A stretch of DNA of 64,000 nt from Rhea pennata (taxonomy: Eukaryota > Chordata > Aves > Rheiformes > Rheidae), in the NCBI RefSeq assembly GCF_028389875.1, contig NC_084687.1, positions 6,174,157-6,238,156 on the forward strand, in the 5' to 3' direction. Shown in pieces: positions 22,204 to 62,100 of this stretch (the first letter of the stretch is position 1; every line of letters starts with the position of its first letter). Below the pieces are notes generated by a model. The model saw only the letters and a program-made list of their open reading frames with translations, was not told the DNA's origin and did no database searches. A program made the position numbers and the translations under genes.

Positions 22204-25200
22204 ATGAAGCTGCAAGAACCGGGATGGGGGAGGCAGCAAGCTGATACGAGTGGCCGAGCATCCGTGGCCGTCACGCAGGGGTCTCGCCACCCCGTGCTGC
22301 TCCTGGCGTTGCTGGGGCTCTTACGCCTGCCTGCTGCTGGCGGTGAGTACAGACACGCGGCACGTGCGGGACAGATGTGCAAGACCTCCCCGCCTCCCCC
22401 CGGCTGCCTGGCCCGAGCTGGGCAGGGTGAGGGGGCCGCCTCCGGGCACCCCCTCGGATCCAGCCCTGCCTGGTGGATGCTCCTTTGGGACTGAAGGCAG
22501 CTGGGGGAGGACAGGGAATGGTGTTGCCAGCAAAAGAGCTTTTCTCCTGACTGCAGGTGACTGTGGGCCTCCACCTCACGTGACCCACGCCAAGCCGTCT
22601 GGTGTCAACCTCACCGGCAGCTTCCCCGTTGGATCCAAGGTCACGTATACGTGCCTTGAGGGCACCATCAAACTGCCCGGGAGGTCGAACACTGTGGAGT
22701 GCCTGCCTGGGCCTCGCTGGTCGGAGCTGTCCGAGCTCTGTGGCCGTAAATATTTCCTTTCTCTGAACTTAAGTTCCCTCCTCTGGCTTTTGCTTCACTT
22801 AAAGTTTCTGCCCTTCGTGGTGGCTGTTCTGCAATAGCGCTCTCCATCCCGGCAAGGTACAGCAATATTTCCTTTAGCTGCCGTTCGTGAGACCTGCTGA
22901 CGGGTGCCAGATCTGGGCCAGACATCAGCAGGGTAAGGGAGGAGCTGGAGCCCGTGGTGCTGGCGCATCCTCTCTGTCCTGGCTGGCAGATGCTCGCTTT
23001 GGAGACAGCTGCCCCATGCACCACGTCTCTGGCACACGACGTTGAGCTCTGGTCTCCTTTTCACAGCTTCTGCCTGCATGCTGAACACGTCCTGCTCTGC
23101 ACTTTGCAACAGCTCCGCTCAGCAGAGCAGCAGTCTGGTGACCTGCTACGCGCTCGGGAGCTTTCCAAAGCACGGCAGCGAGGGCACTGCGGTGCCACAA
23201 GCTTTGTGGGGATGGTCAGCTCTTCCAGGCCTGCTTTCCCTGCCCACCAGGCAGCTGTGCTTCCCCCACGAGACTGCAGTTCGCTGCCCTGTCCGAGAAG
23301 GACCAGTGGAGGAATTTCTACCCTGTTGGGATCACCGTGAGCTACTTCTGCCGCCCTGGCTACGAGAATATCACAGAGAGCTTTCCCACCAGCACGTGCC
23401 TCCAAAATTTAACATGGTCACAAGCTCCCGAGTTATGCAAGAGTGAGTATCCCTGCGCCTGCTCCAGCTCTGCTTGTCACTGAGCAGCCGTCAAATCCAG
23501 GGACGGCTGCTCCAACCCGCCTGCTTCAGTTTAGTCTGAAATATAACCAGGTTGCTGCCATTCCAACAGCTGCGGTTTTAATATTAGTATTTACTGTCAG
23601 GGCATATCAACCTAATTTCAAGGCTTCACAACAGAAGGTACAATCAATAGATTGCAATTTTTGGTGTTGGCATAACGAATTTGTTTTCATGTCAGGGAGT
23701 AGGTTCACATCTGGATGCAGCATGTGCACAGTGCAAGTGCCCATTTGTAGGGAGTGTTCCTAGTGCTGACATTCAATATGGAGATAAAGTATATTTCTCG
23801 GTGAAATCTGTATGTTATTAAGACTGATGATGCGGCACATAGTTGGCTACTGCCAAACTATCAAGATGAAAATCTCTCTTGAGTGTTTTTCTCTGCAACG
23901 CTGCGAGATACCTGCCGCTGCCAGCCACGAGCGCCGAGCCCTGCCTGGGACTTGCACCCTCACCCCGAGTTGTGATACTGGCCGTCGCCTTTCGTTAGCT
24001 CCGCTGCGACACGCGTGAACAAAAAAGCTTTGTTTCCTTCGGGTGTAACCTTGAACATCTGGGTCCTGCGTTAGCCTCTGTTGTTTTTCCATCGCAGCAA
24101 CAGGCGCGACGGCTAACGCTGGCCTTGCTCTCTCCCAGGGAAATCCTGCGGGCGCCCAGGCACGCTGCCCAGGGGCCGAGCGCTTCCTCCAACAGACTTT
24201 CTGTTCGGCGCAAGGGTGGCCTTGTTCTGCGAGGACGGGTGAGTCGGGGGCTGCCCCGCGGGCTCCTGCGCTGAGCTCGCGTGGACAAACGCCGGTGCTG
24301 GCACACAAACTCGGGCCTGACCTTACAAAGCACTTCAGGCTCGTGCTGTGAAGCTCCCGATACGGGCTGGGCTGCTGTTTTGCAATACGTCCCTCCCGCC
24401 GGGTCGCTCCGAGCGAAGCGCTTGTGACTAAGGCACAGCTGGAGGGAGGGGACCCGGATCTGAGCTTGCAACACCCTTCCCAGGGTTGTGCAGAGGAAGT
24501 TTAGCTACCCTAGAACATCCATCGCAACAGGGCTTGTTGTACCATCGGTTTGTAACTACCGATTTCAGAATTGGATACCTGAAATATTACTGGACCTTAG
24601 AACTGGATTTTATTCAACTGGCCCTTAGGGGGAAGTATATATCCTATATTCTGCTCTGTGCTTCTGCGTGATGTCTTAACTGTTGCAGCATCAGTACTGC
24701 TAGCTTGTCCGTTCTCAGTATAAGCTGGACACATATTAGAAAGAGAATCGATTTCCTTCTTGGTTTCTTGAGGTATGAGTCTAGACAACCATGCGAGCAT
24801 GGTTCTACCTTACTGGAAACCCTGGGTTCCCAAACCATTCCTGGGATTCAGAGAACAAGATATATATTGCACAGAAAAAGGTTTGTGATTGAATTTTAAA
24901 ATTTGGAACCATAAACTGGTTATGTTTGCTGGATGTTTTTAAGCTAGAAAAAATGACATGAAGCACACTTTCCACCAGTGATCTGACTCATACTTTCTGC
25001 CTGTTTTCAGGGCACATATGCAGTAAAAGACTGAGATTTGAGAAATTATGCTCTTAAATCTCTGGCTAGTATTCCTCCCTCCCCAAGTAGGAACTAACTG
25101 GCATCATCTGGCTAGTTCTGCCTGTCTTTACAGAAATTTCAAATAAAACAGCTTTTCTTTCCAGATACTGCCTTAGGATGGTCCCTAGGGAAATGACAGC

Positions 25201-27195
25201 ATGTCCAGCCCCTCTCTGGTTTGAAAATAAGCATCAGGGTGGAGGGATAGTATTATCCACCTCAGCTGTTGCATTCAAGTGATGAATTTTTGAAACAGAA
25301 GATAAGTCAGAGACTGGGGGGCAGTCAGTGATGCTGAGACAAGGTGTGTTGGCTTCCAGTGAGCAAGTCTAGTAGCGACTTCAGTGACAACATACAGTAA
25401 TGTTGCTCCTCACCAGTCCCTGCTGTACGCAGTGGATGCATTTGAGTATTTGTAGAAATTCACTGAGCAGGCAGGCAAGGCAGGAAGGTCTGCTATCTTT
25501 TGCTTTTCTGGCAAAATACGCACAACCTTATGACCTACTGGCAATGTCCGGGTAAGGAGAAGGCAATGAAGGACACTGGGCTCCCTGCCCTCTGCCCTGC
25601 CTGATGCCCATTGCACTCTTGGTTGGCCGCTCGCGATGACTTCTTCCATCCTCGCAATCAAGGAAGCACTCTGTAGTGAGAGTCAAAGGAGAGAAGCACT
25701 TAAAGATAGATTAAATAATGATTCTAGTCCTGAAAAAGGCAGAAGATCTCTCCCTCTTAGCCAGCTTCTATCTGCACATCTTGCTTTAAACTGCCTTTTC
25801 TATGCTACTGATCATACTGGTCCAAGGGGGGAAACTACTGTTCCCAGTTTCTGGACAGTTGCACAAATTGCTCTTCTTTTGTGTATTTTCACTTAGGTAC
25901 AAATTAAGCGGGAGGCATTTCATCCAGTGTCAGCTCAAAGGAGACAATGTTGAATGGAGTAAATTTCCAACTTGCGAATGTAAGTTTAATCCAGCCTCAC
26001 TTTTATCTTCATTCCAAAAGCTCCTTGCATGCTAAGGGCTAATCTAAATCTGTCTGCGTAGTTTGTTTGTTTTTCCTGATGTTATGGACGATGGGCATAT
26101 TGGGCTTTTTTTTTTTTTTGCAAACACTGCATTTTGTTACTGATAATATATTTCAGCAATTCCCACACAATCAACATATTTTTATTTCTCATGACTTAAA
26201 AGTTTGTAGTGAATGTGATGTTATGAGATTTCTAGGAATCATGAACCACAGTATGGCAACCTGCCTCTTTATTTTTATGACATCTGGAATAAGAGGGAGA
26301 AAGAACTGAGAACAGAAAAGTTTCAGATGACCTCAGCGAAAGTCTGGGCTAGCTACCCGTCTTCAATTGTCCAGAAGGTTTATTCTCTTCAAGAACCATG
26401 GGAAAACTCTTAACACTTAAACGTTTTGCATTTTAATTATTAGTAAAGCTTTTAGAAATACTCACGTTGGCCTTCTCTCATGCAGTAATTACCTGCTCCC
26501 CACCTCCCAAAATTATCAATGGAAAGCATGATGGTGAAGGTGTAGAACAATTTGCCTATAACTCAACAGTGACTTACAACTGTGATCCTGGCTTCCAGCT
26601 CAGCGGAAACGTTTCCATTCGTTGTACAAGCACAGATAAAATAAATGGAGTCTGGAGTGGAGCTGCGCCTGAATGTAAAGGTGGCTATCATTTGAGTTTA
26701 GTGTTTATTAAGAGTTTAGTGTTCAGTATGCACGAGCTAAACATATCGTGCTTGCCTGATACAAGTGTAAGTCATATTGCAATTTAAAAAAGAAAACACA
26801 CATGGATACCAAAGTGAATATGGAATGAACATTCTAAAAGAATGATGTAGTGCTAAACTATTCTTTTTATCACAGAGAAAAGAACATCTGTCAAACTTAA
26901 ATCAAAAGAAATGGAAAAGAGTCGTGCTCTCAAAGGTGAGTTGAAATGATTCAACATTGAAGTAAAAGTCCCACATTTCCAGATTTAATTAGCTGCTTTA
27001 TTATATCTCTATGAAAAAAGCCATTCAATTAATTTCATACTGTGGTTTTCATTCTTTTCAGATTCCTATGGCTACAGCATCCAAGCATCTAAGAAGGCTT
27101 TCAAAAAGGAAATGAAAATCAGCCTCTATAAAAAGTCACTCCAAAATACCATCTCCTTCTCCCGTTCTTCTTCATTCTCCAGGGCACTAGGTTAG
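22204..27195 (+). CDS. four-CCP complement regulator with basic tail, probably secreted (CRES-like)
   Basis: Exons read: 22204-22342 (signal), 22557-22745 (CCP1), 23251-23442 (CCP2), 24139-24238 and 25897-25979 (CCP3, split), 26486-26680 (CCP4), 26876-26935 and 27062-27195 (tail), totalling 1092 nt or 363 residues. The signal peptide has the core VLLLALLGLLRLPAAG. The CCP order and the introns match the transmembrane gene at 32953 module by module, so the two are paralogues. No hydrophobic membrane segment follows CCP4. Instead there is a lysine- and serine-rich tail of about 64 residues, so the product is probably soluble. Chicken has a secreted RCA protein called CRES; orthology cannot be tested here. 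The CCP part is firm, the tail exons less so. No AATAAA is seen soon after the stop. Confidence 0.78.
22557..26680 (+). other. CCP1-CCP4 exons of the secreted-type gene
   Basis: CCP1 (CGPPPHVTHAKPSG ... RWSELSELC) and CCP2 (CASPTRLQFAALSEKD ... LTWSQAPELC) are single exons. CCP3 is split by a phase-2 intron of about 1.66 kb after FCEDG. CCP4 (CSPPPKIINGKHDGEG ... GVWSGAAPECK) is one exon. All four cysteines and the tryptophan are present in each module. N-glycosylation sequons occur in CCP1 (NLT), CCP2 (NIT, NLT) and CCP4 (NST, NVS). Confidence 0.88.
26876..27195 (+). other. putative basic C-terminal tail exons
   Basis: After CCP4 two short open segments with good acceptors and matching phase 1 follow: 26876-26935 (EKRTSVKLKSKEMEKSRALK) and 27062-27195 (DSYGYSIQASKKAFKK...SRALG, stop at 27193-27195). 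Together they hold roughly 18 lysines and arginines in 64 residues and no hydrophobic stretch. A weak donor (GTTAGT) at 27191 would allow splicing onward to a decayed CCP exon at 27316, also in phase 1. Expression of these exons is unproven. Confidence 0.5.
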
Positions 27196-30900: not shown

Positions 30901-32699
30901 CGTGCATTTTTGTCTCTAAATAGAGAAAAGCTTTGACAAACTGCTGCATGGATATCTCATAGCCACTGGTAATGCCAAAGTGAATCGATAGGCAAGTTTG
31001 CAGCAGGTTAAGTGCAAGATTTTCTGCTGCAGCTTGCAGGAGGCATTAACAGGAGCTGTTGGACTGCTTTCTCTCTCAGATCTTGGGCCCTTGAATAGCA
31101 AATTCAGTGACCCAAAAGCTGGTTTTGCTGTCACCTTAATATCATTCTGGTTCGTGCCTGGTCGTGCTCCAACCTGCTGCAGTGGAAGTGCACGATCCCG
31201 CGAGAGCTACGCTCGGACGTGCATGCCGTTTCATTTTAGCCTTTGCCATGTGCTCTGCCTGATTTCTTTCAGTGAAGGGATGTCAGAGCAAGATAAAAGC
31301 AAGTTGTCTTCAGCTGAGCAGACCCGGCCCCATTATCAACGGGCTCTGCTGCCCTGTGTGTGCGTTTCCAGAGCCCCTTCTGGCATACGGAGGCTTTGCT
31401 GCTCAATTGGCGTTGCTGGGGCAGCAGTGAAAGCGCTGCAAAGTTCAGAAAATGTGCATGGCAGAAACGCAGAGAGACCCCAGCGGCGCGAGCCCGTGAC
31501 AGTTGTGGCGTTCCCTTGGGCGCAGGCAGTGCAGTTTTAGGCTGAGAGATGGATGTGGCTGCAGGAGCGAGACTAGGCTAGGTGGGGCAGAGGACTGATA
31601 GAAACTCTGTTAGCAATGTGCACGATATTGTGAGAATTCTTTGCCAAATGCTTCTCGGTGTTTTGTTATCTCATGTCAAGGTCACTGCTATAATCCATCA
31701 CAGTAAAATTCCTCCGTATTTGTTTTTTTTCCCCCTCTTAGCAACTTCCTTTTACATGATAGAGCCACTATGCCAAGTCTCATCTCAGTTGCTGAGTGAT
31801 CTGGAAAAATACGTGGTCAAGACATTTTCCTATATCAACATGTTCACAAAAGATTATTTTACAGGAATATGTAATGCAGGATGCTTCACTGCTCCCTCAG
31901 GAGCCTTGCTGAAAATGCTTTTTTACATGTACTTGGAGATAAATTGCATCCAAAAAGTGATATAAAGTAAAAACGCAAGAAAAATGAGTGAAATAACTTT
32001 GAGCTTCTCAGTGGAAACACCGTTGTTTCCTGGAAAGACCAAGGCAGACGGAGAGAGGCAGGAAGGTCCCAGGAGGGCCGGGCGGCAGGAGGACCTCGCT
32101 GTGAGTGGTAGCCCTGACATGAGTTCCACTGGGAGAGTGTCACAGTGGAAATGCCATCATCCTTGCTGTGTTTTTTTTTTTTTTTTTTTTTTTTTGGTAT
32201 ATGCATTAAAAAACAGTTCAGTTATCAGCTTCCAAGTGAGCCTCACTTACAGCTTAGCTGTGCCCTGACTTTGTGCATCGCTCAGCAGAAGGGTGTCGCT
32301 CTCCTTTCTTCTTGCAGGAAAACCTCTTACTCAAGAAGGGCTTTTTTCAGGGGCTGGCAAGCAATGCCAGGGAGATGAGCCTGGCTGGGCTGGGGCATCG
32401 CCAGCCTCCGGGAGCTGATCCCCTGCCCCGCACCCTCCCGTGCCCTGCTGCAGTGCGCGAGGGCTGCGAACAGGGAGCTTCTCTGCCCCTTCCAGCTGGT
32501 GAGGCCACATACTGACCAGCCCCCCCCCTTCTTCTTTTTATGTTTGCAACTGGATAACTTTGGAAAGAGGCAAGTCTTTACTGGAAAGGGCAGAGAACCA
32601 ATTTGCCCCCCGCTGCGTTTCTCGGGGGTGGGTGGGGGGGGGGCAAGCGTGGCTTCTCTGAGGATGCACAAAAGTAACCGTGTACCTCAAACGGGTTCC
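27934..32699. other. intergenic stretch between secreted and transmembrane CCP genes
   Basis: Nearly 4.8 kb without a CCP exon or other gene I can support. It contains a purine tract (28103-28145), a C run near 29025, an AATAAA near 30603 that could serve the upstream gene, and a long T tract at 32170-32195. The part from about 31.1 to 32.7 kb is moderately GC-rich and carries chance open frames. Confidence 0.45.
28103..28145. repeat. GAAA-type purine tract
   Basis: An A-rich tract with repeated GAAA units is followed by CCACCACCAACAACAA. Low-complexity sequence only. Confidence 0.8.
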
Positions 32700-33100
32700 A
32701 GCAGCAGGTAAGAATTCCAGGAGGAAAATTCCCGAGCCGGAGATCAAACGGAGGGCACGGCAGCGGCCGGGTTTCCGGGCGAGCTTCTGCTTTCTGCCGG
32801 GCGCCCCGCTTGGGCAGTGCCCGGCTTCCACTCCGACCACTGGAAAAACCGTATCAGCGGGAGGAGGCTGCTGCCGGGAAGGGCGGCGGGGGCCGGGCCG
32901 GGGCCGCTCCCTGCCCCGGACCGCGCCGCGCTGCGGGCGCTGCTCCGCCGCGATGGGCGCCGGGCGCCGCTGGGCGCTGCTGCCGCCGCCGCCGCTGCTG
33001 CTGCTGCTGCTGCTGCCGCCCCCGGCCCGCGGTGAGACCCGGCCCGGGGGGCTGCGGCTGGGGCTGGGGAAGCCCCGCTGAATCCATTTTTATTTTACCG
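32700..33100 (+). promoter_or_regulatory. CpG island over the first exon of the transmembrane CCP gene
   Basis: The sequence from the GC-rich block at about 32750 through the signal exon is dense in CpG (for example GGGGCCGGGCCGGGGCCG). It has no obvious TATA box at a usable distance. This fits a broadly active promoter for the gene whose ATG is at 32953. Confidence 0.6.
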
Positions 33101-36100
33101 TAGGCAGTTGTGGGCCGTTGCCCAAGTTAACCTACGCAGAGCCCCCGGAGGAGGAGAAGCCTAGGGAAAGCTTTGCTGTTGGCTCCAAAATAACATACAG
33201 ATGCGTTCAAGGCTTTGCTAAACTGCCCAGGATGCCAGACACGGTAGAGTGCCTTGAGAGCTCCCAGTGGTCCCATCTCCTCGAATTCTGCAATCGTAAG
33301 TATCCTGCTTTCCCCGAAACGAGAAGGGATGAAAAGACGTACTGCTTCAGCAAGTGCTGCCGCAAGGCTCTCTCGCCTCGGCAGGGACGGGTGATCACCC
33401 GCTTATCAGAGGATCTGTCAGTGTCCCTTCTTCCTAATTCTGTTTAGCCCCTTGGGGCCATGCAGCAGCACTTGTGCGTTAATAAAAATAAATAGCTGGG
33501 GGGAGTGCAGGACAGAGGAGAAGAAGAGTTGCAAAGAGTGCAAAATATTGTTATTTTTCGTTTGTATGTTTGGATTGTCTTTATTGTTCCTAGGTAGCTG
33601 TTCTAGCCCACGACGTCTAAGCTTTGCTAAAATATCAGAAGAATATGAAACCAAGAATTTTTATGCTGTTGGGATCACTGTGAGTTATGTTTGTCGCCCA
33701 GGCTATGAGAAAGTCAGTGAAAGGCTCCTCAACAGTACCTGTCTTGAAAATTTAACGTGGTCAGAAGTTCCTGAGTTATGTCCAAGTGAGTGTCTTCTGC
33801 AATGACCATCTACAGCTGAATCCTTAGGACTGTGTTTTTGGTTCCACATTGGGTTTTGTTTTAGGATTGCTTTTTCTAATAATGTTTAGCATGAAATATC
33901 ATCTGGTCTGAAGTCATCAAATATCTGGTTAGACATTGCCATAATCTCATGTGAAGTATTTTTGTTATTTTTTCCCATCCTTGTAATGTTGTCCTAAGGC
34001 TGATCTTGCTTTTCTTAGAGAAATCTTGTGGCATTCCAGCAAATCCAAAACATGGCAAAGTTGCTAAAACAGATCATCTCTTCGGTGCAAAAGCAAATGT
34101 AATTTGTGATGATGGGTGAGTATGAAGCAAACTGCCCACGTTGATTTATAGCTTAGTGCAGAACTGCTAGCTAGTGCTGGGACCTTAAAAACAGAAAAAC
34201 AGATCAAACAGGGGAATAAAATGCCACTGAAAGCCAATGCCAGAAGTCCAGAGCAGCGGGAGGGAAGGGCTGCTGAGAAGTGAGGATCAGGATCTCTCCT
34301 GTTGAAGCTCTGGTACCATTGTATGTGCTACACCTTGATCAGTCCTCTAATGGAAAATGCCACTGTAGCGTGAGTGATTTGTAACATCCATCGGTTTTGA
34401 TGGCAATTTCTGCTCTTCAGAGGAATGGAAAATGCTGCATCTGTCCATACAAAAGCTTAATGAAAATATCTGGCTGAAGTTTAATTTAACGTGTAGGAGG
34501 TTAGTACAACAAAACTCAGTGTGAGACCTTACAGAGGAGGAAGGTGATACTTGCTTTGCAAAAACCTGATTCAGCTCACTCTGACTCGTTGTCTCATAGA
34601 TTTTTCGCTCATGTTCACAAGCAGCAAGAGGTGCGTGCCCAGGTCGCCAGGCCAGGATCACTTGTGCGTGACACAGAGGACAAGGGACCCTGTCTGGCCA
34701 GTCCTTAGCATGTCTCTGGGACGACATCCTCTTGACTGCTGTCAAAAACCTGATTTTGGATGTCCCTTTTGCACCTGTAGGTACAGGCTGGTAGCACAGT
34801 CACCTTTCATCCATTGCGTGCTAAGAGGAAACGACGTTGCCTGGAGTAAACTCCCAGCTTGTCAGGGTAGGTGAGGTTGGTGTCTGCCTAGAAACAGCAA
34901 ATATTTCAACTCAGAAATACTCAATTTTATGTTGATTTTTCCAGATTAAATCAGGTAACTAATAGCGGAAAGGAGAGGCTTGATGCGATGAAAATCGGGA
35001 TTAGTCAGGAGGATTGCTGGTGCTTTTTGAAAAGGAAAGTCTGAAATAAATAAGCAACTGCATGGCGTTGTTGTCTCTGCAGGCTGTCTCCCTGCCACTA
35101 TCCCACGTGTCTGCAAGAGAGCGGGCAGCGAGACCCCTAAAAATAACTGTCTGCAGAGAGCGCAGCCGGCACTCGGATTTCAGCCTGCTGCTCCTGAGAC
35201 AGGAGGCAACGCGAGCCCACACCTCCAATGGCTCCTGCATTCTCCTCTTTCAGTGCATGGGGGAGACGGTGTAGGTGCTGTTAAACGAACACCTTTCTAT
35301 CCCTTTTCCCCTCAGCTATTGCCTGTGCTCCACCTCCAGCCATTCGCAACGGGAAGCACAACGGCAGCAGTATGGACGAGTTCAGGTACAACTCGGTTGT
35401 GACTTACACATGTGACCCTGGTCTTCGACTTACTGGAAATGAAAGTCTTCGTTGTGTAACTGAAAATAAGATCCATGGTGTCTGGAGTGGGCCTCCTCCT
35501 GAATGCAAAGGTGAGCGGTGGTGGAGAATCTTCTCGTTCTGGAATAGTTTTTCTTGCCACGCAGTTAGTTGGCCCAAATTTGCATCTCTTCGAAAGGGGA
35601 GGTCTGCTCTCTGGGCAAGAATTCCCCCGAGGCCTGTTTCCAGTAAGGCAATATCTACTTACAAGAAAATTTAATAGAAAATCTTGGGTTTTGAGGGAAG
35701 ACAACATGCTAAGTTCTGCTGCAAAACAACTCGAGTACAGTTGTGCGCAGTTTTGTGTCTTTCTCTGCAAGAGGGACAATGTTTTATTTAAAAGAATGTT
35801 TGAAATGTGTCGTTGGCTCAAAAAAAGGTGGGCTAAAGCTCAGGATGGTTTTATATTTATTGTCCAGCAACAACTGGGGAGTAGAACCAAACGGACTGTA
35901 GAGCCTGCCTACCCGTAAGACTTTTAGTGCCACCAAGAGGTTCCTTTTTGCCTCTTTTACAACTCTCATATAAATCAGAGAAATGCTTGAGTCTTTAAAG
36001 AAAAAATTTAAGTGTGAGATCTTTGGTAAAGGCTGCAGTAGTCAGAGTGGTCCCTGGATCTTATGAGTTTCTCCGGGACACTTGGCAGAGATCTTGCTGA

Positions 36101-39100
36101 CAGTCCATAGCTTTGTCCTTTACCAACGTGGGCCTCTTCCTGTGTCAGAGATGACGCTCTTGGGCACGCCTTGAGGAATAGACACTAATCCTCCTTGGCC
36201 AGCAGCATGGGCTTTTGGTGTATTTCCAGATCCTCATACCACTATTACCACAGATCAGAGGCCACATGTCCACTGCATTTACTCCTCAGCGGAGTATTAT
36301 GTATGTTATATATATATAGTGAATTATATAATATCTATATTTTAACTGCTTTTTTTTTTTTTTTTTTTTTTAGCTTTTTTCTCTGTAGTTGACACTATGA
36401 AAGTGACAACCGCAACTAAACTCTTAGAAGATGAAAGAGCAGAGAATCATCATATCTTAGGTGAGAGTTCAGGAACCACTTTCCGCCCCAGGGTCATTTT
36501 GCCCCGACTCATTAATAACGTTTTGTCTCCTCGGGAAGACATTATGGTTATCTATGTTTGAATAATACTGTTCATAGGCACAGATTAAGGAACATTCTTT
36601 ATTGGTTATCTTTATTGATTTGTTTATTCTTTGTTGGTTATTCTTTATTTCTTCTCAGCACTAAATTGAATTCATTATTTTAATCTCCATTTCTTCATTT
36701 TCTTCTCTAGCATTTATCCTTATCCCTAGTTGCATTGGTAAGTTATTTAAATTTGAGAATATACTTTCATAACCCAAAGCTGTTATTGTAGTTTAATATC
36801 TGGGGTCACTAATATGTTTTCTTCTTTTTAAAACTCCTAGTTCTAAACTTGTTTCTCTGGTTAGAATTTGTGCATTTCTCTGTTAGGTAATGAACAGCGT
36901 TGTAAGCAACTGCAGGTGTCTTGGTATAAAACATTACGTCAGCTGAGGGAGAAATGAAACGAGCCACACAATATTGTACATCCTGTCACTCTTTGATTAA
37001 GAAAGTTTGTTTAAAAGGGCTTAGCAAGTTTTTAAAGATGAGAGATTAGTGAAGCTTGGAACATCCTTGTTGCAAAAAAGAGTGAATATTAAAAAAGGAT
37101 GAATATTTTAAAATACAAAGCAAACAGGAGACTGTCTATAAAAGCACTAAGTAAACGAGAATCATGCATTTAAGAACATCAGCATGAAAAACATCCTTTA
37201 ATAGTGATTTCCTGTGGTCTCTGTCCAGGGATATAAGAGGGGCTTTTGCATTATTCTGACTTGAAGGAGGGGGAGAACCTCCTATTGGTGATAGTCTGCC
37301 GCAGAGCAGTGAATTTTACCGCCAGTCTTTGATCAAACTGTTATATTTCACTTAAATTACTTTTTGTAATTTACATTACAAATTTGCTGTTTGTTTTTTG
37401 CTTGCTTCCCAAGGAGTCTGTATACTTCTAGTCTGGGTCATCATGAGGTGGAAGAAAAAAAAGAAAAAACAGTAAGTGAACCTAAGTTAGTCCTCATAAA
37501 TCTTTCAGTTTTTTGCTAATGTCCCTCTGATAGTACAAAACGAGGTGTTTCCTCTTAAGCTTTGAGTGATAGAAATTTACCTCAGGTGTATGTTTCTATG
37601 GTTTAGTATCATCTTTGTGTTAAATTTTGTTTTATTCTATAAATTTTCTCCTTTCCTTTCTCTCTCTCCAGTTCTTATGATACATATTCCCCAGAGCATG
37701 AAATTAAGAGAACGGATCTGCAGGAGAGTGAAACAGAGCCGGATAATGAAAAGAGATCTGTGCCATGGCATCACTTTTTCTGGTAGGTTTGCTTGTTTGG
37801 AGAGATGGGGAGGCTGCGACATCGTTTAAAACGTTTGTTGCTGCATGTGTGTTGCAGAAGGCAGAGCCAGGAGAGCCCCCAGGCAGGAGGTATGCGGTGA
37901 CTCCTGCTCCCAAGGGTTTCATTGCATTAAGGCTGGGGAGCGCAGCCAGTGCATTTGTTGTAGGTGGCCTCTAGGAATCAGGGTTGGGGGGAAGGTAGAC
38001 CGAAGGAGGGTGCTTTGGTGCCCGAAAGCTTGTGCATGCCTAGTGATCTGATAGAAATGGGCTTGGGTGCCCCAAGAGCTTGTGTATACCTGCTGATCTA
38101 ATAGAAAATATTATTTCTAGCTGCAAACCACGCAGTTTGCAAATCTCAGGTGCTAGCACCTCTGCTTTCTCACGAACTTGCTGCTGGCTGGATGAGGTGG
38201 CAATCACTTCACTGGCAGCATCTGACGTGAACGAGCCGGGCCTCCTGGCAGGAGGAAATCCTCCCCAGCACCTCTCCTTGTCTCGTGTCCGCAGCCACCG
38301 CACGAGCTGCCACGTGTGCCCCAGCTGCGAGGCCGGGCTGCACGCGCACCTGGGCCGGCCGGCCGGCCGCCTCTGCACCGCCTGCGGGGACTGGCAGCGC
38401 GCCCGGCACGGCCCCGCTCCCACCTACTCAGCCCTGAGCATCAGCGGCGCCCAGAGCCAAAACCTGGCAGACAGAAGGTGTGTGGGCCACAGGGGCACTC
38501 GTTTCCCCCAGCAGAAACGGCCCGTTCCTTTTGAGTGGGATATTTGGAAAGGATCTGTGTAGAACAGTGGAGGAATGGGTCACTTCGGGTGGGGGAAAAT
38601 AGCATAGATACCCTGATAAAGCAGGAAAATAAGGTAAACGTTGCTGTTGCTTTGCAGTTTGAGTTGCTGAGCTTGCAGGATAACGGCCAGTCCGTATGCA
38701 CAGAGTCAGCTGGTGCCCAGTTTTGCATGACGCTCTCTTCCAACAGATCTTCTCATTTCTTATTTCTTGAAATCAAGAAGAGTGCAATTTAAAAAATGCA
38801 CGTTCAGAAGCCATGAAAGAAGAGTGGCACAAAATACAGATCCAAAAGCCAAATACTTAGCAACACTTGATGAAAAAATGTTTACTTTTCACATGGCTTA
38901 GGTTTTCCTTCAGCTTTTCTAGAAGTACAGAGCATAGGCTTTCTCTGAGGCAACATGTGGAGTGGAGACAAGCTTTAAAAACCCCGTACGATAAAATCTT
39001 GCCCTGTCTAACTTGTAAAGACCTTAGTATTAAGCTTTAATAACTTGTTCAGTCATGACTTTTGGTCAATACTGACAATATACCACCATAGGGATGTTTT

Positions 39101-40949
39101 TTCTGCTGTTAAAATTCCTTTATCGGTCCAATTCTTGCAAAAGTATTTACTATTCAGAAAAAAAAGTGGTTCAGTAAAGCACTGTTCATTCCAGCAGTGC
39201 GTTATATTCCGTCAGTTCTCTCTCTCTCTTTCTCTTTCTCTATTCAGTTCTACTGACAAAGCTCCAGATTTGCTGAAGAGAGACTTTGCAGAAGAAGAAA
39301 TTTTGGAGAGGCATGAAGCAGAGCAGCCTGGGAACCGGGAAAGGTATCTCCTCCGTCTGCCACCTAAAAATACGCAGCTGGTAATGAATAAAAGTAATGT
39401 CAGTGAGAGTAGAGCTGCGCCTAAGGGGTAGTTGCAGGTGCCAGACTTCACAGGTGATTTTTGAGTCCCCCCAGAACGACCTCTGTTATGCTGCACGTCT
39501 TTGTGCTTCTCCACAGACCCGCTCACATTTGTCCCCTCTGCGAAGACTGGCTGCGCACCCACCTCGGCCAGCGCGAAAGCGCTCCCGCAGCACCCGCGGA
39601 GCCGGCGGCGCCTCCCAGCCGGCAAGGAGCGGGGTGAGTTCAGCGCTGTCGGTGCAGGTTGTTCCTCTCACCAGAGCGGTGCTACAGCAGGCGGTGAGAG
39701 TACCAAAACCGGAAAGGTAATGTTTTAACTTAAAATCAGAAAATGCCTGAGCTGCATAATGTTGTGATTGCACTGACTGGTGTACAGCCCCGTATCTGAA
39801 TAAACGCCTGCCGCCAGCTCAGAGCTGCAGCTTGAAAAGGGAGAGGTGTAAAAATGGTGTGAGGCTATCTAGGCAATGTTTCGTGATTCCCCTGGGCGCC
39901 TCTGAACTGCTTGCGTTGTTTCCTCCAGCTCTCAAGCAGATAGTGCTCAGATTGGTCGTGCATGTTTTCCTTGGCCCCTTGCAATTTCCCTTTGATTAAG
40001 CAGCAAAGAGTCTGAGTGCTGTTCTTGACAGTGTGCAGTGTGGGCCTGCTTTTCACGCAGCTGCAGAGTGCTTTTCCTACTCCTGGCGATTATTAATCTG
40101 TTTGTGGCAGAGTTGTGATGCAGTAAATGAAGGGATAGTGCGTGTTCAGCTGGCCATTTTTTGGCACAGGTATGCTTATGCAAGTCTGTTGTGCTTGTGC
40201 AGGATCACGAAGCACGTTGTTTGTTTAAATGAATCGTACTTTATAGAGGCAAATTCACAAATATTTGACTAAAATTAACATGGCTTGAGGTGTAATTCCG
40301 CGGGCCCTAGCTGCTGTAAGCACTTCTTTTATAGGTCATTTATTTCATGCTCTTCCAGCAGTTTCTCGCTCCTCTCACTATTAGCCCCGTAAGCGCCCTT
40401 TTTCAGTTCTGCGCTCACGAATCTCTAATTGTTTGAGTTACAAAGTCAACATGTTTTAAGCCTGTAATGAAAGGTGGCGTTTACTGGAGCCGGAGCCTCT
40501 GCCGTTGGGCCTGGCACGAAGCACAGCGTGGGACAGGCGCTGCTGCCAGGCCCCGCTGCAGGGGACCCGCCGGCCGCGCTCACCCCGCGCGCGTCTCTCC
40601 GCAGCGCCGGCGGGGCCCTGTGCCCGGCCTGCGAGGACCAGCTGTACCTTTCCCTGGTGCCCGGGGCCGAGCAGGGCTGCTACGCCTGCCCGCTGCGCGG
40701 GGCCGGGGCGGGCGCGCACCTGGTGCCCGCCTGCGCCCCTGCCTGCCATGCCTGCCCCCGCTGCCGGGCGCCGACCCACGCTCACCTCTGCCAGCGCCGG
40801 GACGGACGCACGGCCGCCCCGCAGGACGCCGACCCGCGGTGGGTTTGGTTCTGGGGTCAAGGTGCCACAAATGAGGGAGAACAGCCCTCGCTCCACGGCG
40901 GCAGGTGGGTCTTAACTGCCCCTTTCCCTGTTGCAGGGTAAATGCCTGA
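32953..40949 (+). CDS. transmembrane four-CCP complement regulator with CxxC-rich cytoplasmic tail (CREM/MCP-like)
   Basis: Membrane regulator of the CD46/CREM type, expected to bind C3b/C4b on the cell's own surface. Fifteen exons: 32953-33031, 33104-33295, 33594-33785, 34019-34115, 34781-34866, 35316-35510, 36389-36460, 36711-36737, 37414-37471, 37672-37782, 38295-38477, 39248-39343, 39517-39633, 40605-40838 and 40937-40949; they sum to 1752 nt (583 residues). Residues 1-26 are a signal peptide with a seven-leucine run, 27-280 are four CCPs, 281-304 a stalk, about 305-325 the membrane span, then a poly-lysine stop-transfer and about 250 cytoplasmic residues. Phase agreement across all exons supports one transcript. 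Chicken CREM is the nearest named analogue; orthology is not shown here. Confidence 0.82.
33104..35510 (+). other. CCP1-CCP4 exons of the transmembrane gene
   Basis: CCP1 (33104-33295) begins SCGPLPKLTYAEPPEEE. CCP2 (33594-33785) begins SCSSPRRLSFAKISEE and ends LTWSEVPELC. CCP3 is split (34019-34115, 34781-34866) after CDDG. CCP4 (35316-35510) begins CAPPPAIRNGKHNGSS and ends [11 protein letters not shown]. All cysteines and tryptophans are intact. The module order equals that of the gene at 22204. Confidence 0.9.
36389..37471 (+). other. stalk and transmembrane exons
   Basis: 36389-36460 encodes a hydrophilic stalk (VDTMKVTTATKLLEDE...). The membrane span is split over two exons: 36711-36737 gives AFILIPSCI, and 37414-37471 gives GVCILLVWVIMRW followed by six lysines. 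Together they make about 21 hydrophobic residues followed by a strong basic stop-transfer signal, typical of a type I membrane protein. The second exon ends in phase 2, and all downstream tail exons keep that phase. Confidence 0.85.
37672..40949 (+). other. cytoplasmic tail exons: alternating acidic and CxxC modules
   Basis: A1 (37672-37782) and A2 (39248-39343) are related acidic exons (SYDTYSPEHEIKRTD and STDKAPDLLKRDFAEEE). Z1 (38295-38477), Z2 (39517-39633) and Z3 (40605-40838) are GC-rich and cysteine-rich. Z1 has CHVCPSCEAGLHAHL then CTACGDWQRARH; Z2 has CPLCEDWLRTHL; Z3 has CPACEDQLYLSL, CYAC and CHACPRCRAPTHAHL. A four-codon last exon ends at the TGA at 40947-40949. All internal borders are phase 2. 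Such paired CxxC and histidine elements look metal-binding. I know no named family that fits, so no function is assigned. A stop codon overlapping the A1 donor would give a short tail if that donor were not used. Confidence 0.65.
38008..38108. repeat. two-copy tandem repeat of about 50 bp in a tail intron
   Basis: Two imperfect head-to-tail copies contain GAGCTTGTG or AAGCTTGTG and GATCTNATAGAAA. They lie in the intron between the A1 and Z1 tail exons and have no coding role. Confidence 0.75.
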
Positions 40950-41400
40950 GAGCGCCGCGTGGCTCTGCCTTCCCAGCTGAGAGACGCAGAACTGGTTGAA
41001 AGGAGCAGAGAGTTACTACACTAACGTCTTACGTTCTCACTGGAGTTTTAAACTCAAGGCAATGTGACATTAACTTTCGTACTTCACAATCAACAAGAAG
41101 TTCTTTGTAAAGAAGATGAAGGATCAAGCATACTCCAAATCTAGCTCCCTGCTGGTTTGGTGCCTGCATTATTTCGTGCTTTAGTAAGAAAAAGACCTAC
41201 TTTTGCAGTTCTTAGAATGAACTTTGGATATTCAGCAAATGTTTCTCTCTTAAAGGAAAATAATTTCGTAGTAAGCATCCTATTCTGACAGTCTTGCAAG
41301 ATTTACTAGTATTTTTAAACTTCTTTTTTTACTGAGGTTATTTAGTAGTGTGCAAATACGAGTGATGAAACAACAGTATTTATAGTAAAACTATTTTGTA

Positions 41401-41406
41401 AATAAA
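41401..41406 (+). terminator. AATAAA of the transmembrane CCP gene
   Basis: A canonical hexamer about 450 bases after the TGA at 40947 is followed by a T-rich stretch at 41442-41455. It is the natural mRNA end for the long-tailed gene model and supports placing the last exon at 40937. Confidence 0.65.
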
Positions 41407-41546
41407 GGGAATACTAAAAAAAGAACATTAGTATCCTGAGTTGTTTTTTTTCCCCCATATTCACTAATAAAACCTTACAGGCAGTTTGAAATGCTTTGAT
41501 AATGCTGTTTTCTGCCCTGATAGAATCACCAGCTGCTCAGAGATAA

Positions 41547-49200: not shown

Positions 49201-52200
49201 GGTACAGGCTGCTACCCTTTCTCTGTTCTGGCTGAGACTGAATCCAGTCACTTCTTATGCTACAGCACAAGCCTCTCTGCAGTGGAGTTGGGGGGGGGGG
49301 CAGCAGAGTCCTCCCCAGGCGTCCCTCAGTGCAGCTGAGTTTTTGCACAGTTGCAAGCCTGCCTGTGGTCTTGGTCATGTAAGTCTGGTTAAGAGCTATC
49401 GCTTGGCATCACTCTAAAAAGACAAATCAAGTAATTCTCATGCCAATTTCTTTTCCTCTAGGAAAGCAATGTTCTTCTCCCCAAATAAACAACGGGAAAG
49501 TAATAGCAGACAATTTCCAGTTTGAGACAACAGTGAGTTTCACCTGTAATGCTGGGTGAGTGGATCATTACTTAAGAGAGACTGAAGCTGAAGATTGGGT
49601 ATGGTGACCTGGAGGTGCTCCACAGATAGGCAATACATCCACCACCCCCGTTACCTGCCAGTTTCCCAGTACAAGTCCCCAGTAAAACTCTATTATGTCT
49701 TCAGTGAGATAAGCAAGTGTGGTGATTCATGCATAATTAGTAATCTCATTGTATTACTAATCGTGCATGCTTCAGTTCAGCTCTATATTCCAACTACATA
49801 CTGGAAACATGGGTGGGATACAGCTCTACTGAGCTACAGTAGGTCACCAGCACCCTGAGACAAAGTTCAGTGGAAACCTAGGAAAACGTTACAGGTCTGG
49901 GGGTATAAGTGAATGCATTTCAATCCTTTACAAAGAAAAGGAGGCAGTGGTTCCCTCTCTTTTAGATTGGGAGTTATTTCTGTGCCTCTTGCTGAGACAC
50001 TGGCGAGGGATCCCTCCTGCTAAAGCTTCTGAAAGTTTACACCCTTCCCTATTTGTCAGGTCAGGCAGCCCTTATTTGCTGCTTTAAAGTAGCTTTTGAG
50101 GTGTCCAGATCCCATTTCACAGCAGGAGCAACTTCTGTTCTTGTATCCATGCAATGGTGGAGGAGGAGGGTGAAGAACCCTTTCTAGGTTGTTTTCTGAA
50201 AATTATAAAATTCCTCTTTTTCTTTAGGTATAAATTAAAGGGGTCATCTTCCAGCACATGTGTGATTTCAGGAAATGGAGTTGGCTGGGATACAGCATTT
50301 CCAAGCTGTGAAAGTAAGAGGACCTGTGCCCAGAGCCATAAAGATAACAGTTGGAGCTGTTGTGGCGTAGCTGCTTTGCTGGAGAGCTTGGTCTGCTTGC
50401 TCTTGTGCTTCAAGCTGCTGTAATATTCAAAATTTCAATACTAGCTTGTTCTGTGAGGCCTTAGCTGGAATATTCTTGCGCAATTCAGAAGTCATGCTGA
50501 CAAACTGGAGGGAACCAGAGGAGAGCAACAGAAAGCAGGGTTTTCTTCTTCATGAAGCAACCCCTGAAACTGGAAAATCATGGAAAAATTAGGAAAATTA
50601 TGACCCCGTTTATAAGTAGAGGAAATTATCTTTCTCTCTAGTTGCCAGGGGAAAGATGAAAATAAATTGGGCTCAAATTTGATGTTAGAACTCTATCTAC
50701 ATAATTTGGTATAATACTGAAATCAGGTATTTATGGTGTTAGGCAAGGCTAAGAATTAAGAAATATTACAGAATTACCTTCACTACTGTTTTTTAACAGC
50801 AATGTCTGTGACTGCCCCACCATCTTTCCTTACTTCAAGAAGAGTCAGCAGATTACCACTGGGGTGGTTAATTTAATATGTCTTGTAAGTCAATCTTGGC
50901 TCTTAAAGCTAATTACTATAGTAAATTACTATAATTTTTCCTAGCTTACACGGTTGCATTCCACTTTCCTTCTAGTCTCCTGTTGAATAGGATGCCTCCA
51001 ACATACTAGTCTAGGCCAGTTACTTTGACAAGGAAAGTTCTGGCTTGTGTCTGGGAATTTAAGTTTCTTGCTCTGTATTTCAGGACTAAAGCTGGGGATG
51101 GCTGAAAAATTTCCTCTAGTCTAGTTAGGTGCTTCAGTGGCCATAGGCAGTAGCTGATGTCCAGTATTGAGCAAGAAAGCTAAAAGTATTTTCAGGTGTT
51201 TCTAGATGCATGTCAGTTGGTTACATCTTCTTCTCACACATCTGACACACATTTGCAGTTAGGAAAGTGCTCAGACGCTCTTGGTGGTGTCCTTCCTGTA
51301 GGACAGCTCCCTGATGTTTTCTGTGGACCGCCACCTACGATTGACAATGGAATACACAATGAAACAACAAAAAGCAGCTTTCTTCATGGCTCTGTTGTAG
51401 TCTATGAATGTAATAAGGGCTTCATCCTTACTGGAGAGGCCTCTATTCGCTGTGTATTAGAAGATGAATCTCATGGAGTCTGGAGTAAGCCTACTCCTGA
51501 ATGCAAAGGTGAGTAGCTGAGGTCCAGTATTGAGCAAGAAAGCTAAAAGTATTTTCAGGTGTTTCTAGATGCATGTCAGTTGGTTATATCTTCTTCCCAC
51601 ACATCTGACACACATTTGCAGTTAGGAAAGTGCTCAGACGCTCTTGGTGATGTTCTTCCTATAGGACAGCTCCCTGATGTTTTCTGTGGACCGCCACCTA
51701 CGATTGACAATGGAATACACAATGAAACAACAAAAAGCAGCTTTCTTCATGGCTCTGTTGTAGTCTATGAATGTAATAAGGGCTTCATCCTTACTGGAGA
51801 GGCCTCTATTCGCTGTGTATCAGAAGATGAATCTCATGGAGTCTGGAGCAAGCCTACTCCTGAATGCAAAGGTGACTCTCCTCTGTCTATCTTGCTGCCT
51901 CTTCTCTCTCTTTTGGAAAATTTATGTTTTTGCTGCCTCTTTGAATTCTCAAATCAAATACTTCAGTTAAGGAATAAGCCTTCAAAACTTCCTGAAATAG
52001 CTTGCATTGAAATCTAGTGCCAAAAGCACGTGACTAGGTTGCTGCAAAGACTTGCAGGCTACTGGAAGTGTATTCATTCATTAAACATGTGAAACCTTGG
52101 GTTACACAGGGGTCCCATTCCCTCTGCTATTTCAGTTGTCACTTTAATATGCATTGGCTTTGATTTGAGACACTGAATGTTGCATAGTTTGATGAACTGT

Positions 52201-56135: not shown

Positions 56136-59100
56136 GGGGAGGGCAGCGGGTGGGGTTGGGTCTGCCATAAGGCACCTTGGCGCCATTTTCCACCTCAGGC
56201 AGGCGGCGGCGGACTAAGCGCCTCTGTGTGACCTATAGCTAAGTAGTCCAGGCCCTTTATGTAGATTAATCTGGGTGGAAGCCCCCAAAATGGCCCCTCA
56301 TGGGTGGCGTTGCGCCCTGGACCGGCTCTTCAGCGAGATGGCGGAGAGTCTTCCGCAGCCGGTCCAACTTCCCAGGCCGAGGGGCTCGACCTGCATGTTT
56401 GCCCTGGCCTCGAAAGGGTGGCTTTCTGTGAGGAAAAGACAAGTTATCCCTAAGTTAATGCTTTGTAAAAAGGTTAAGCAGCCGTTTCTTTTGCAATGCT
56501 TATTTTTCCCTGCGTTGGTGGGACGCACCTCCGTCCTGCGCCTCGAGCCGGAGCTGCGCCCTTCTCTCGGTGGGCTCATGGCTCGGCGGGTTGCTCGGAG
56601 ACGTCGCGGCCGTTATCCAAAGGCTGCTGCCAGCGTGAGCTGTTTGTTTTACATTCTTTCTACGTTCTTTCTACATTCTTTCTACATTCTCGTGTCTTGT
56701 GCAAATGTTTGCCTAGTAAACAAGGCTGCTTCTCTGCTACCTTGGTTCTAAAAGTCGGCCTGTCTGTCTCTACCCCTCGCGTTATTTCTCCAGAGATTCA
56801 GTGCAAACGGCCTCCAGATATTCCCCATGGGCGGAACACTGGCAGGTTCATGGACAAGTTCTCCTATGGATCGGTTGTAACGTACACGTGCGATGGAGGT
56901 TACACCCGCACTGGCGAGGCCTCCATCCGGTGCGTGACGGAGGATGGGCTGACCGGCGTGTGGAGCGGGCCCCCGCCACAGTGCGGACTTGGTGCGTACC
57001 TTGCCGTGGCGCCATCCTCCCCATACGTGCAAGTTCCTCCTCAGACAAGCCCTCAGGAACGTAGCTAGCTTTTCCTACTGGCCAAATCCTCACCAGCATT
57101 TCCCTGGCCTGGATCATATGAATGCACTTGGTACTAGAGCAGGGGGACAGGCTGTGCTGGCAGCAAATGTCACCTGATGCATCCAAACGCTCTTCTTCCT
57201 GGCCCATAGATTAGGAGTATGCAGCAAGGCCTGGAAGAGCTTTTAGTGACACCAGGTAGTAATAAATCCTGTGACCTCAGCTGAGGAAGCAGCTGGGCTC
57301 ACACAACAGCCTAGCAAAGCCATTCTAAAGCAGGCTGCTGATGTGGGACAAGTGAAGGACACCGCCCGTGTGGCTCTTCCCCATCACTCCCAGTAATCTC
57401 ATGCAGGTCAACAAGTGACTTGGAAACCATTGATGTGGAAACCATCACAGGTATGAAAGGCTTGAGAGCTGTGTAGCTAAACACTGCTATTTCTCTCCCT
57501 TTTCCAGATATTCGATGCCCATTCCCACACATCCAGAATGGGAGGAGACTACCCCCTACTCGCTACATCTACAAGACTGGGGACACTGTAAACTTTGAGT
57601 GCAATTCAGGCTATGCCATTCAAGGCTCCCATACAACCACGTGTGGAGCTGATTTCAAGTGGAGTCCACCTCTGCCAGTTTGCAAAAAGGGCAAGTATCT
57701 CAGCATAGGAGTGTGAACACTAACAGCCATGGGAGAAAAGCTCCCTCTAGTGTCCTCTCAAATTCAGTGAGAAAGTAAAGCCAGGATGGATCTGTCCTTG
57801 CTTCTCTTCTCAAATCAAGGCACTTCCGGAGAGACATGATCAGCTCAAAAGAAAGGTGCTTACTGCTAGACTGAGAAATGAGGCTAAGTGCTGTCTGCTC
57901 TGCCCTGGGCTTTGAGAGGGATGTGAAGATACAAACTTCCCAGCTGATCTCCTTGGGTGCTGTGGTCTTCATGTTCCCTGTGATGCAGCAGGAGACTGTC
58001 ATTTCTCAAGCATGCAAACAATCCGTAGGCCAGCCGCTGAGAAGTGGCAATAACTGCTTCGCTGTGGGGGTTTCTGTGATTCTGCTTACAGCCCAAAGTG
58101 GGACACTTTCATCTCCCTGTGTGCTTCCTGCTAGCAGCTTCTGTGATCTGAAATGGGAACAGGAAGCAATTGCAACTTCTCATTCTCGCTGCTTTTGTGT
58201 GTTCACATGCCTCTTCTGCTAAATCCTGTGACCTACCAGTAACTTTTATGCAGAAAATGTTCACATTATGAGTAATTCTCACCAGCTACTATGTGAGGAT
58301 TAATCTTGATGTGGCTGAACTTTTTTGTTAACTAATACTTTGGTCCAGGAAATACAGCAAAGACTGAACAAAATTTGGATATTACTCTGGCAAAGAGTTC
58401 TAATAACATGCAAAATGGTAAACAGCTAATTCAGCAGCCTCTGTTCCCTTTTCAGAGGTGAAGTGTCCTCGGCCACCAAACATCGCCAATGGGCAGCACA
58501 GCGGCCAGTCCTCGGACACTTTTCCCCGGGGAACAACTGTGCACTACAGCTGCAGGGATGGCTACATGCTAGTTGGAAACATGTCCATCAACTGCACAGA
58601 CGCTGGGCTGTGGAGCCGGCCCCGGCCCCGCTGCGAAGGTGGGTTGATGCTCGCTTTTCCAGGCATAGGGTCTGCAAAGAGGATCAACTCCCAGGGCACT
58701 GAGCTGTGGCACCACTCTCTCACCACCAGTGCCGATGTGCACTTGTGGAGGCCACATGGCTTTTGGGAAAAAGCAGCCTCTTGCATTGCACGGGTCCCCA
58801 TCCCTCACACCTTTGCTGCATCCTGCCAGACCCCTCTGCCTCAGCCACGCAGGGTCAGCTGTGATGGCTGGACTCATTGGCAGCAATTTGTGCCAGGATG
58901 TCAGCAGAGCACAGAAATGCTTATGGGAGTGATGGGAAGGGATGTAGCTGAGTGTGCCAGACCCAGCTGCTGTCCTGCCCATGCACTGGCATTTAAAGGA
59001 TTCCATCCATGTTTCCCCCAGCAATCGGCTGTGACAGACCCAAGGTTCAGAATGGGAAAATTCACCTGTTGCAGAGTACCTACAAAGCTGGAGAGACTCT

Positions 59101-62100
59101 TCGTTTTGGCTGTGAAGCCGGCTATGCCTCAGAGGACAGCTACGAGACACAGTGCCAACCAGGGGGCAGGTGGGACCCACCGGTGCTCAGCTGCGTGAGG
59201 AGTGAGTGCTGCTGGGCTCCTTGCTGGTGGCCTGGGGCGCATGGCTGGGGAGGGGGCAGACCTGCGGTGCCCCCATGAGCCCTCAGGCTGTTGCAGGGGT
59301 CCTCCTGGGTAGCTCTGCCCCAGCCTGCTCCTGTCCTTGCTCCACCACCTCAGCCTACGCAATGAGCCCACTCCCCCTTTCAGGTTATTCTCTTGCTTCG
59401 TTAGAGACACCGTTTCTCTCTTTTACAGTACAGCCGTGCCCCATGCCTCCAAGGATCAAGAATGGAAATCACAATGGCCAGGGCACAGCATTTTTTACCA
59501 TGGGAATGTCTGTGACATACACCTGTGATTCCGGCTACTACCTTGTTGGAAATGCGGTAGCTCTTTGCAGAGCCTCTGGGAACTGGAGCCTTCCCACGCC
59601 TCGCTGTGAAGGTGTGTCTGTGATCTCTGACCTTCTGCAAAAGCCAGCAACTCCCAGCACAGGAGACAGCGCAAGAGAGAAGCTGACCATTGCAATTAAG
59701 ACTTTCGGTGTGGGAATCGAGTCCCATTTAAATAGTCCTATAGTTTTATAAAACATAAAGGATAAGCTCACGATTGTGAACATGGAGTTAGGTTATTCTA
59801 TACATGTTGTTTATCAGTGCAGTACTTTCAGTGTTAGGAGCAATGTTCCAGGGACCCAAAGGCTCTTCCAACAACTTATGTTCTCATGTTTCCAAGTTCA
59901 GTGAAATGTAGCTCTCCAACCTGGGCACTTGCTGCCTTCATGCCTGCCCTGCCTGCCCCCGGCCAGTACAGCATGCAGGCTGGCCCCTGCTGTGGTACAG
60001 TTCAATAATTCAAATCACTGAATGTGAATGTCTGGTAGTGAGTGCCAAAAGCCAGCACACTGATTCATTTGAGACTAAATGCAAAGAAGTCTCCAAAACT
60101 ACCTCCCTCCTTAAGGTGTTCCAGCACCAGCTTGGCTCTTGGCTCTAGGGCACCTGAGGAACAACCCAGACAGAGACACATTGTTGCAATGCAGCCATTG
60201 CTGTGCTCCAAGATGCAGCCTTGGGGATAGGAACTGCTGGATTTCTATGAAATGATTCGATATTCTTTCTCCAGAAAAGTCAGAGGAATCACAGGACACC
60301 ACGAGACTGATAACCAAGCTGTAGACACAGGCAGTACCTTCAATACAAATGTCCCTGGACCCCCATCCAGCTTCCACGCTGTTTTTGTTGCTAATGTGGC
60401 TTTGAGTTGTCTTCCTGTCTCTAGGACCTCACCTCTTCCAGGCACTCTCCTAACCCTTTCGCCTTCCTTTCTAGAGGTGAAGTGTCCTCGGCCACCAAAC
60501 ATCGCCAATGGGCAGCACAGCGGCCAGTCCTCGGACACTTTTCCCCGGGGAACAACTGTGCACTACAGCTGCAGGGATGGCTACATGCTAGTTGGAAACA
60601 TGTCCATCAACTGCACAGACGCTGGGCTGTGGAGCCGGCCCCGGCCCCGCTGCGAAGGTGGGTTGATGCTCGCTTTTCCAGGCATAGGGTCTGCAAAGAG
60701 GATCAACTCCCAGGGCACTGAGCTGTGGCACCACTCTCTCACCACCAGTGCCGATGTGCACTTGTGGAGGCCACATGGCTTTTGGGAAAAAGCAGCCTCT
60801 TGCATTGCACGGGTCCCCATCCCTCACACCTTTGCTGCATCCTGCCAGACCCCTCTGCCTCAGCCACACAGGGTCAGCTGTGATGGCTGGACTCATTGGC
60901 AGCAATTTGTGCCAGGATGTCAGCAGAGCACAGAAATGCTTATGGGAGTGATGGGAAGGGATGTAGCTGAGTGTGCCAGACCCAGCTGCTGTCCTACCCA
61001 TGCACTGGCATTTAAAGGATTCCATCCATGTTTCCCCCAGCAATTGGCTGTGACAGACCCAAGGTTCAGAATGGGAAAGTTCACGGATTGCAGAGTGCCT
61101 ACAAAGCTGGAGAGACTCTTCGTTTTGGCTGTGAAGCCGGCTATGCCTCAGAGGACAGCTACGAGACACAGTGCCAACCAGGGGGCAGGTGGGACCCACC
61201 GGTGCTCAGCTGCGTGAGGAGTGAGTGCTGCTGGGCTCCTTGCTGGTGGCCTGGGGCGCATGGCTGGGGAGGGGGCAGACCTGCGGTGCCCCCATGAGCC
61301 CTCAGGCTGTTGCAGGGGTCCTCCTGGGTAGCTCTGCCCCAGCCTGCTCCTGTCCTTGCTCCACCACCTCAGCCTACACAATGAGCCCACTCCCCCTTTC
61401 AGGTTATTCTCTTGCTTCGTTAGAGACACCGTTTCTCTCTTTTACAGTACAGCCGTGCCCCATGCCTCCAAGGATCAAGAATGGAAATCACAATGGCCAG
61501 GGCACAGCGTTTTTTACCATGGGAATGTCTGTGACATATACCTGTGATTCCGGCTACTACCTTGTTGGAAACGCGGTAGCTCTTTGCAGAGCCTCTGGGA
61601 ACTGGAGCCTTCCCACGCCTCGCTGTGAAGGTGTGTCTGTGATCTCTGACCTTCTGCAAAAGCCAGCAACTGCCAGCAGAGGAGACAGTGCAAGAGAAGC
61701 TGACCATTGCAACTGAATCTGCAGAGCTGGTTAATCCCATTTAAAGTGTGACCTAGTATAAACATTTTCAAGCTCTTCTACTGTGAAGAAGGGACTGGGG
61801 AAGTTGATAGAAATGCCATGTATAAGTTGTTGTTTGCCATAATGACAGCCTCTTGTCTTCTTTTTTTTTTCTTTTTAACTGCTATTTCACATCATTTCTG
61901 CACATCTTCTTTTTCAGTGACTGTCTGCGTAAGTCCAAATATAGAGAACGGAAGGAAAGTTGATGGTCACGGGCTTATCTATGGACCTGGGCAAACAGTT
62001 ACATTTCAGTGTCATAATGATTACAGCCTGCAAGGTAGTGCTAAAATTTACTGCCAGGAGGATGGCACCTGGAATCCTCCTGTTCCATTCTGTAGTAGAG

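Follow-up and report, generated by a model that had tools for sequence, protein, structure and literature searches.

The window analysed here, a 64,000-nucleotide stretch of the Rhea pennata genome (contig NC_084687.1, positions 6,174,157 to 6,238,156), contains a complete 15-exon gene on the forward strand (32953-40949 in window coordinates, used throughout) that encodes a membrane-spanning sushi protein whose long tail is rich in cysteine and histidine. The gene model is well supported and reads through 588 residues without an internal stop. A signal peptide leads into four sushi domains, followed by a stalk-like exon, the two exons of a membrane span and six exons that encode a 251-residue tail. 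A Pfam search of the joined protein gave only Sushi above cut-off (E 7.9e-41, four stretches), the tandem sushi arrangement of the regulators of complement activation (RCA). We consider it moderately probable that this is an RCA membrane protein on the general plan of CD46 and DAF, with a tail lengthened by duplication of one Cys/His unit of about 22 residues; in our best reading, the repeat-built Cys/His tail is real. A first-pass annotation of this DNA had proposed a transmembrane complement-regulator-type protein with such a tail, and this architecture stands, as do the six tail exons in consistent phase 3' of the membrane span, which are open and agree in phase at six junctions. Overall, its observation is partly confirmed and its interpretation partly supported.

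A repeated Cys/His unit in the tail exons

The tail repeat consists of six degenerate copies of the unit, distributed within exons and across three phase-2 exons (the Z exons). Units open with a Cys-x-x-Cys-Pro or Cys-Pro-x-Cys element, a histidine occupies one shared place in four of the six, and the CxxC...H spacing recurs. Pairwise DNA identity among units averages 0.58, frame preservation is above that in neutral simulation, and the conservation is frame-specific. These sequences show signs that the reading frame of the unit was kept while its copies diverged. The first-pass annotation had described two types of recurring cysteine element; the repeat is present in all three Z exons, but as one unit rather than two types. 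Likewise, its picture of a tail built from duplicated A-Z exon pairs survives for the Z exons, which are related by the repeat, and finds no support in the acidic A exons. Sharp G+C peaks coincide with the Z exons (38285-38480, 39500-39700 and 40500-40900; 66-83% per 100 bases versus 45% for the window), and the A exons lie outside them. All five internal tail exons are 2-2 symmetric, so splicing could leave out any of them and still keep the frame.

Table 1. Exons and polyadenylation signals of the rhea gene; splice-site percentages are ranks among all AG or GT sites of the window.
Feature	Position	Strand	Evidence
Exon 1, start codon and signal peptide	32953..33031	+	ATG, leucine-rich leader, GT donor
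Exon 2, sushi domain 1	33104..33295	+	home-made sushi HMM match 33157-33291; frame open
Exon 3, sushi domain 2	33594..33785	+	home-made sushi HMM match 33647-33775; frame open
Exon 4, sushi domain 3, first half	34019..34115	+	DNA resembles another sushi half-exon of the cluster
Exon 5, sushi domain 3, second half	34781..34866	+	DNA match to 25918-25974
Exon 6, sushi domain 4	35316..35510	+	home-made sushi HMM match 35324-35506, 76.6 bits
Exon 7, stalk-like, between sushi 4 and membrane	36374..36460	+	splice-site scores, open frame; without known homologue
Exon 8, membrane span, first part	36711..36737	+	hydrophobic, in frame
Exon 9, rest of membrane span and basic stop-transfer stretch	37414..37471	+	joined span, then RW and six lysines
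Tail exon A1, charged	37672..37782	+	acceptor top 0.29%, donor top 2.06%; phase 2-2
First Z tail exon	38295..38477	+	repeat; third-position G+C 0.92
Tail exon A2, charged	39248..39343	+	acceptor top 2.45%, donor weak (top 6.15%); phase 2-2
Second Z tail exon	39517..39633	+	repeat; third-position excess absent
Third Z tail exon	40605..40838	+	repeat; third-position G+C 0.94
Last coding piece and TGA stop	40937..40949	+	acceptor top 0.35%
AATAAA poly(A) signal	41401..41406, another at 41466	+	pattern

Within the window, matches to the type I and CxxC[EG]D unit patterns are confined to this tail, and a search of the whole 1.27-Gb genome gave a significant match at this locus alone, although only the best candidates were scored and distant copies could escape. 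A blastn comparison of 32500-41500 with the 134-kb neighbourhood gave no non-self match beyond 36382, and hence no copy of a tail exon in that neighbourhood. No significant relative was found in IMG/VR or GTDB genomes; neither collection includes bird genomes, so these negatives are silent on conservation. None of five peptide strings taken from the units was found in the literature searched. As a separate observation, an unrelated-looking open frame around position 1501 of locus L029 has one unit-like CxxCxxC stretch (E 0.147), which we take as chance.

Putative metal binding and alternative readings of the tail

The pattern of its residues makes it plausible, and likely enough to test, that the tail binds metal. 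Following the favoured reading, the Cys/His unit would have been duplicated inside exons and across the three phase-2 exons, which charged spacer exons separate, and at least one isoform would include the translated tail. The CxxC...H units, singly or paired, could then bind zinc and fold into small knuckles, which might join tails to one another or dock a cytoplasmic partner; when sushi ectodomains cluster on surfaces coated with C3b/C4b, a signal might in this way pass inward. Skipping of symmetric exons would yield tails differing in unit number. Signalling through the tail is speculative. A fuller version, which we offer only tentatively, is that a complement-regulator lineage evolved a tandem zinc-knuckle tail from a unit without detectable relative, with symmetric cassette exons setting the number of knuckles and the receptor coupled to an intracellular scaffold that senses metal or redox state.

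Several results weigh against metal binding. Both cysteines and the aligned histidine are kept in only three of the six units, whereas known zinc-finger families have a full ligand set in each module. The tail has no Pfam match at E 10, and none to a curated zinc-finger profile; a hand-made consensus of three units gave matches that were all below cut-off (best E 0.41), no significant structure match was found in the PDB, and both structure models are of low confidence. Rubredoxin, with its CPxC knuckles, comes up in a comparison with a profile built from the six units at E values of 1.1 to 6, which are not significant; rubredoxin is a folded iron protein, with no significant relation to the tail units.

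The degenerate ligand positions, the divergence among the units and the lack of a zinc family match also fit a rather unlikely alternative, in which the tail is protein-coding yet binds no metal. Its cysteines would then carry lipid, take part in redox chemistry or be mere remnants, and the repeat would be an extension that changes fast under weak constraint. The recurrence of CxxC, the shared place of the histidine and the preservation of frame beyond neutral simulation argue against this, and the first Z-exon cysteine lies about 37 residues past the lysines, a long way out for lipidation close to the membrane.

It is improbable that the CxxC elements, rather than folding alone, hold a zinc jointly with two cysteines of a cytoplasmic kinase. 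There is precedent in PMC12198760, where a cysteine pair in the CD4 and CD8 alpha tails forms an intermolecular zinc site with Lck, and the opening elements of the units recall this cysteine pair in an immune-type receptor tail. However, CD4 and CD8 alpha have one CxCP per tail, whereas here the spacing is CxxC, there are six copies, and both zinc site and partner are putative. Improbable as well is an artefact of G+C-rich tandem repeat DNA, open by chance and with splice-like borders; the true tail would then end in a brief read-through past the membrane exon or past A1. In its favour, G+C peaks locally in the Z exons (up to 80-83% per 100 bases) and chance openness is 18%, but the frame-specific conservation, third-position periodicity, agreeing phases and a terminal exon followed by poly(A) signals speak against it.

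Comparison with known complement regulators

CR1 and CR2 have short tails. CD55 (DAF), which is usually lipid-anchored, has the third of its four sushi domains split over two exons; the rhea gene shares this plan but has a membrane span and long tail instead of the lipid anchor. Human CD46, as described in PMC4469999, similarly has four sushi domains, a stalk and one membrane span. Its alternative exons give tails of 16 or 23 residues, in agreement with the first-pass statement that CD46 tails are short and unlike the 251-residue repeat tail of the full-length model here, besides which shorter splice forms may exist. Among birds, duck CD46 and chicken CREM (PMC11481396) are likewise sushi proteins with a membrane span and cytoplasmic tail but, compared by description, have five sushi repeats and a sushi-like domain rather than four sushi domains; the cloned duck gene, at 1227 bp, would leave little room for a 251-residue tail. 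Complement-regulator tails are the point where complement sensing becomes cell signalling, which human CD46 achieves with its two short tails. If real, the six-unit tail would be a second, quite different coupling of complement to the cell interior, and would illustrate how a small repeat unit can originate and then spread through exons.

The surrounding sushi gene cluster

The locus is a cluster of complement-regulator-type genes, since sushi exons are dense around the gene, both in the window and on the same contig. The set at 22562-26676 is the closest DNA match, in parts, to sushi 2, 3b and 4 of this gene; no membrane span was found after it by a scan that misses split spans. Downstream of the gene, a repeat at about 41550 resembles the avian CR1 element. 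Two copies of a sushi exon lie 363 bases apart and differ by one residue (51322-51504 and 51685-51867). Three sushi domains are repeated 2019 bases apart (58464-59607 and 60483-61626), two protein-identical and one slightly different, which is a recent duplication inside a neighbouring gene. Past the window, two more sushi domains form a protein-identical repeat 4280 bases apart (L022 and L023; window coordinates 70855-71569 and 75135-75849).
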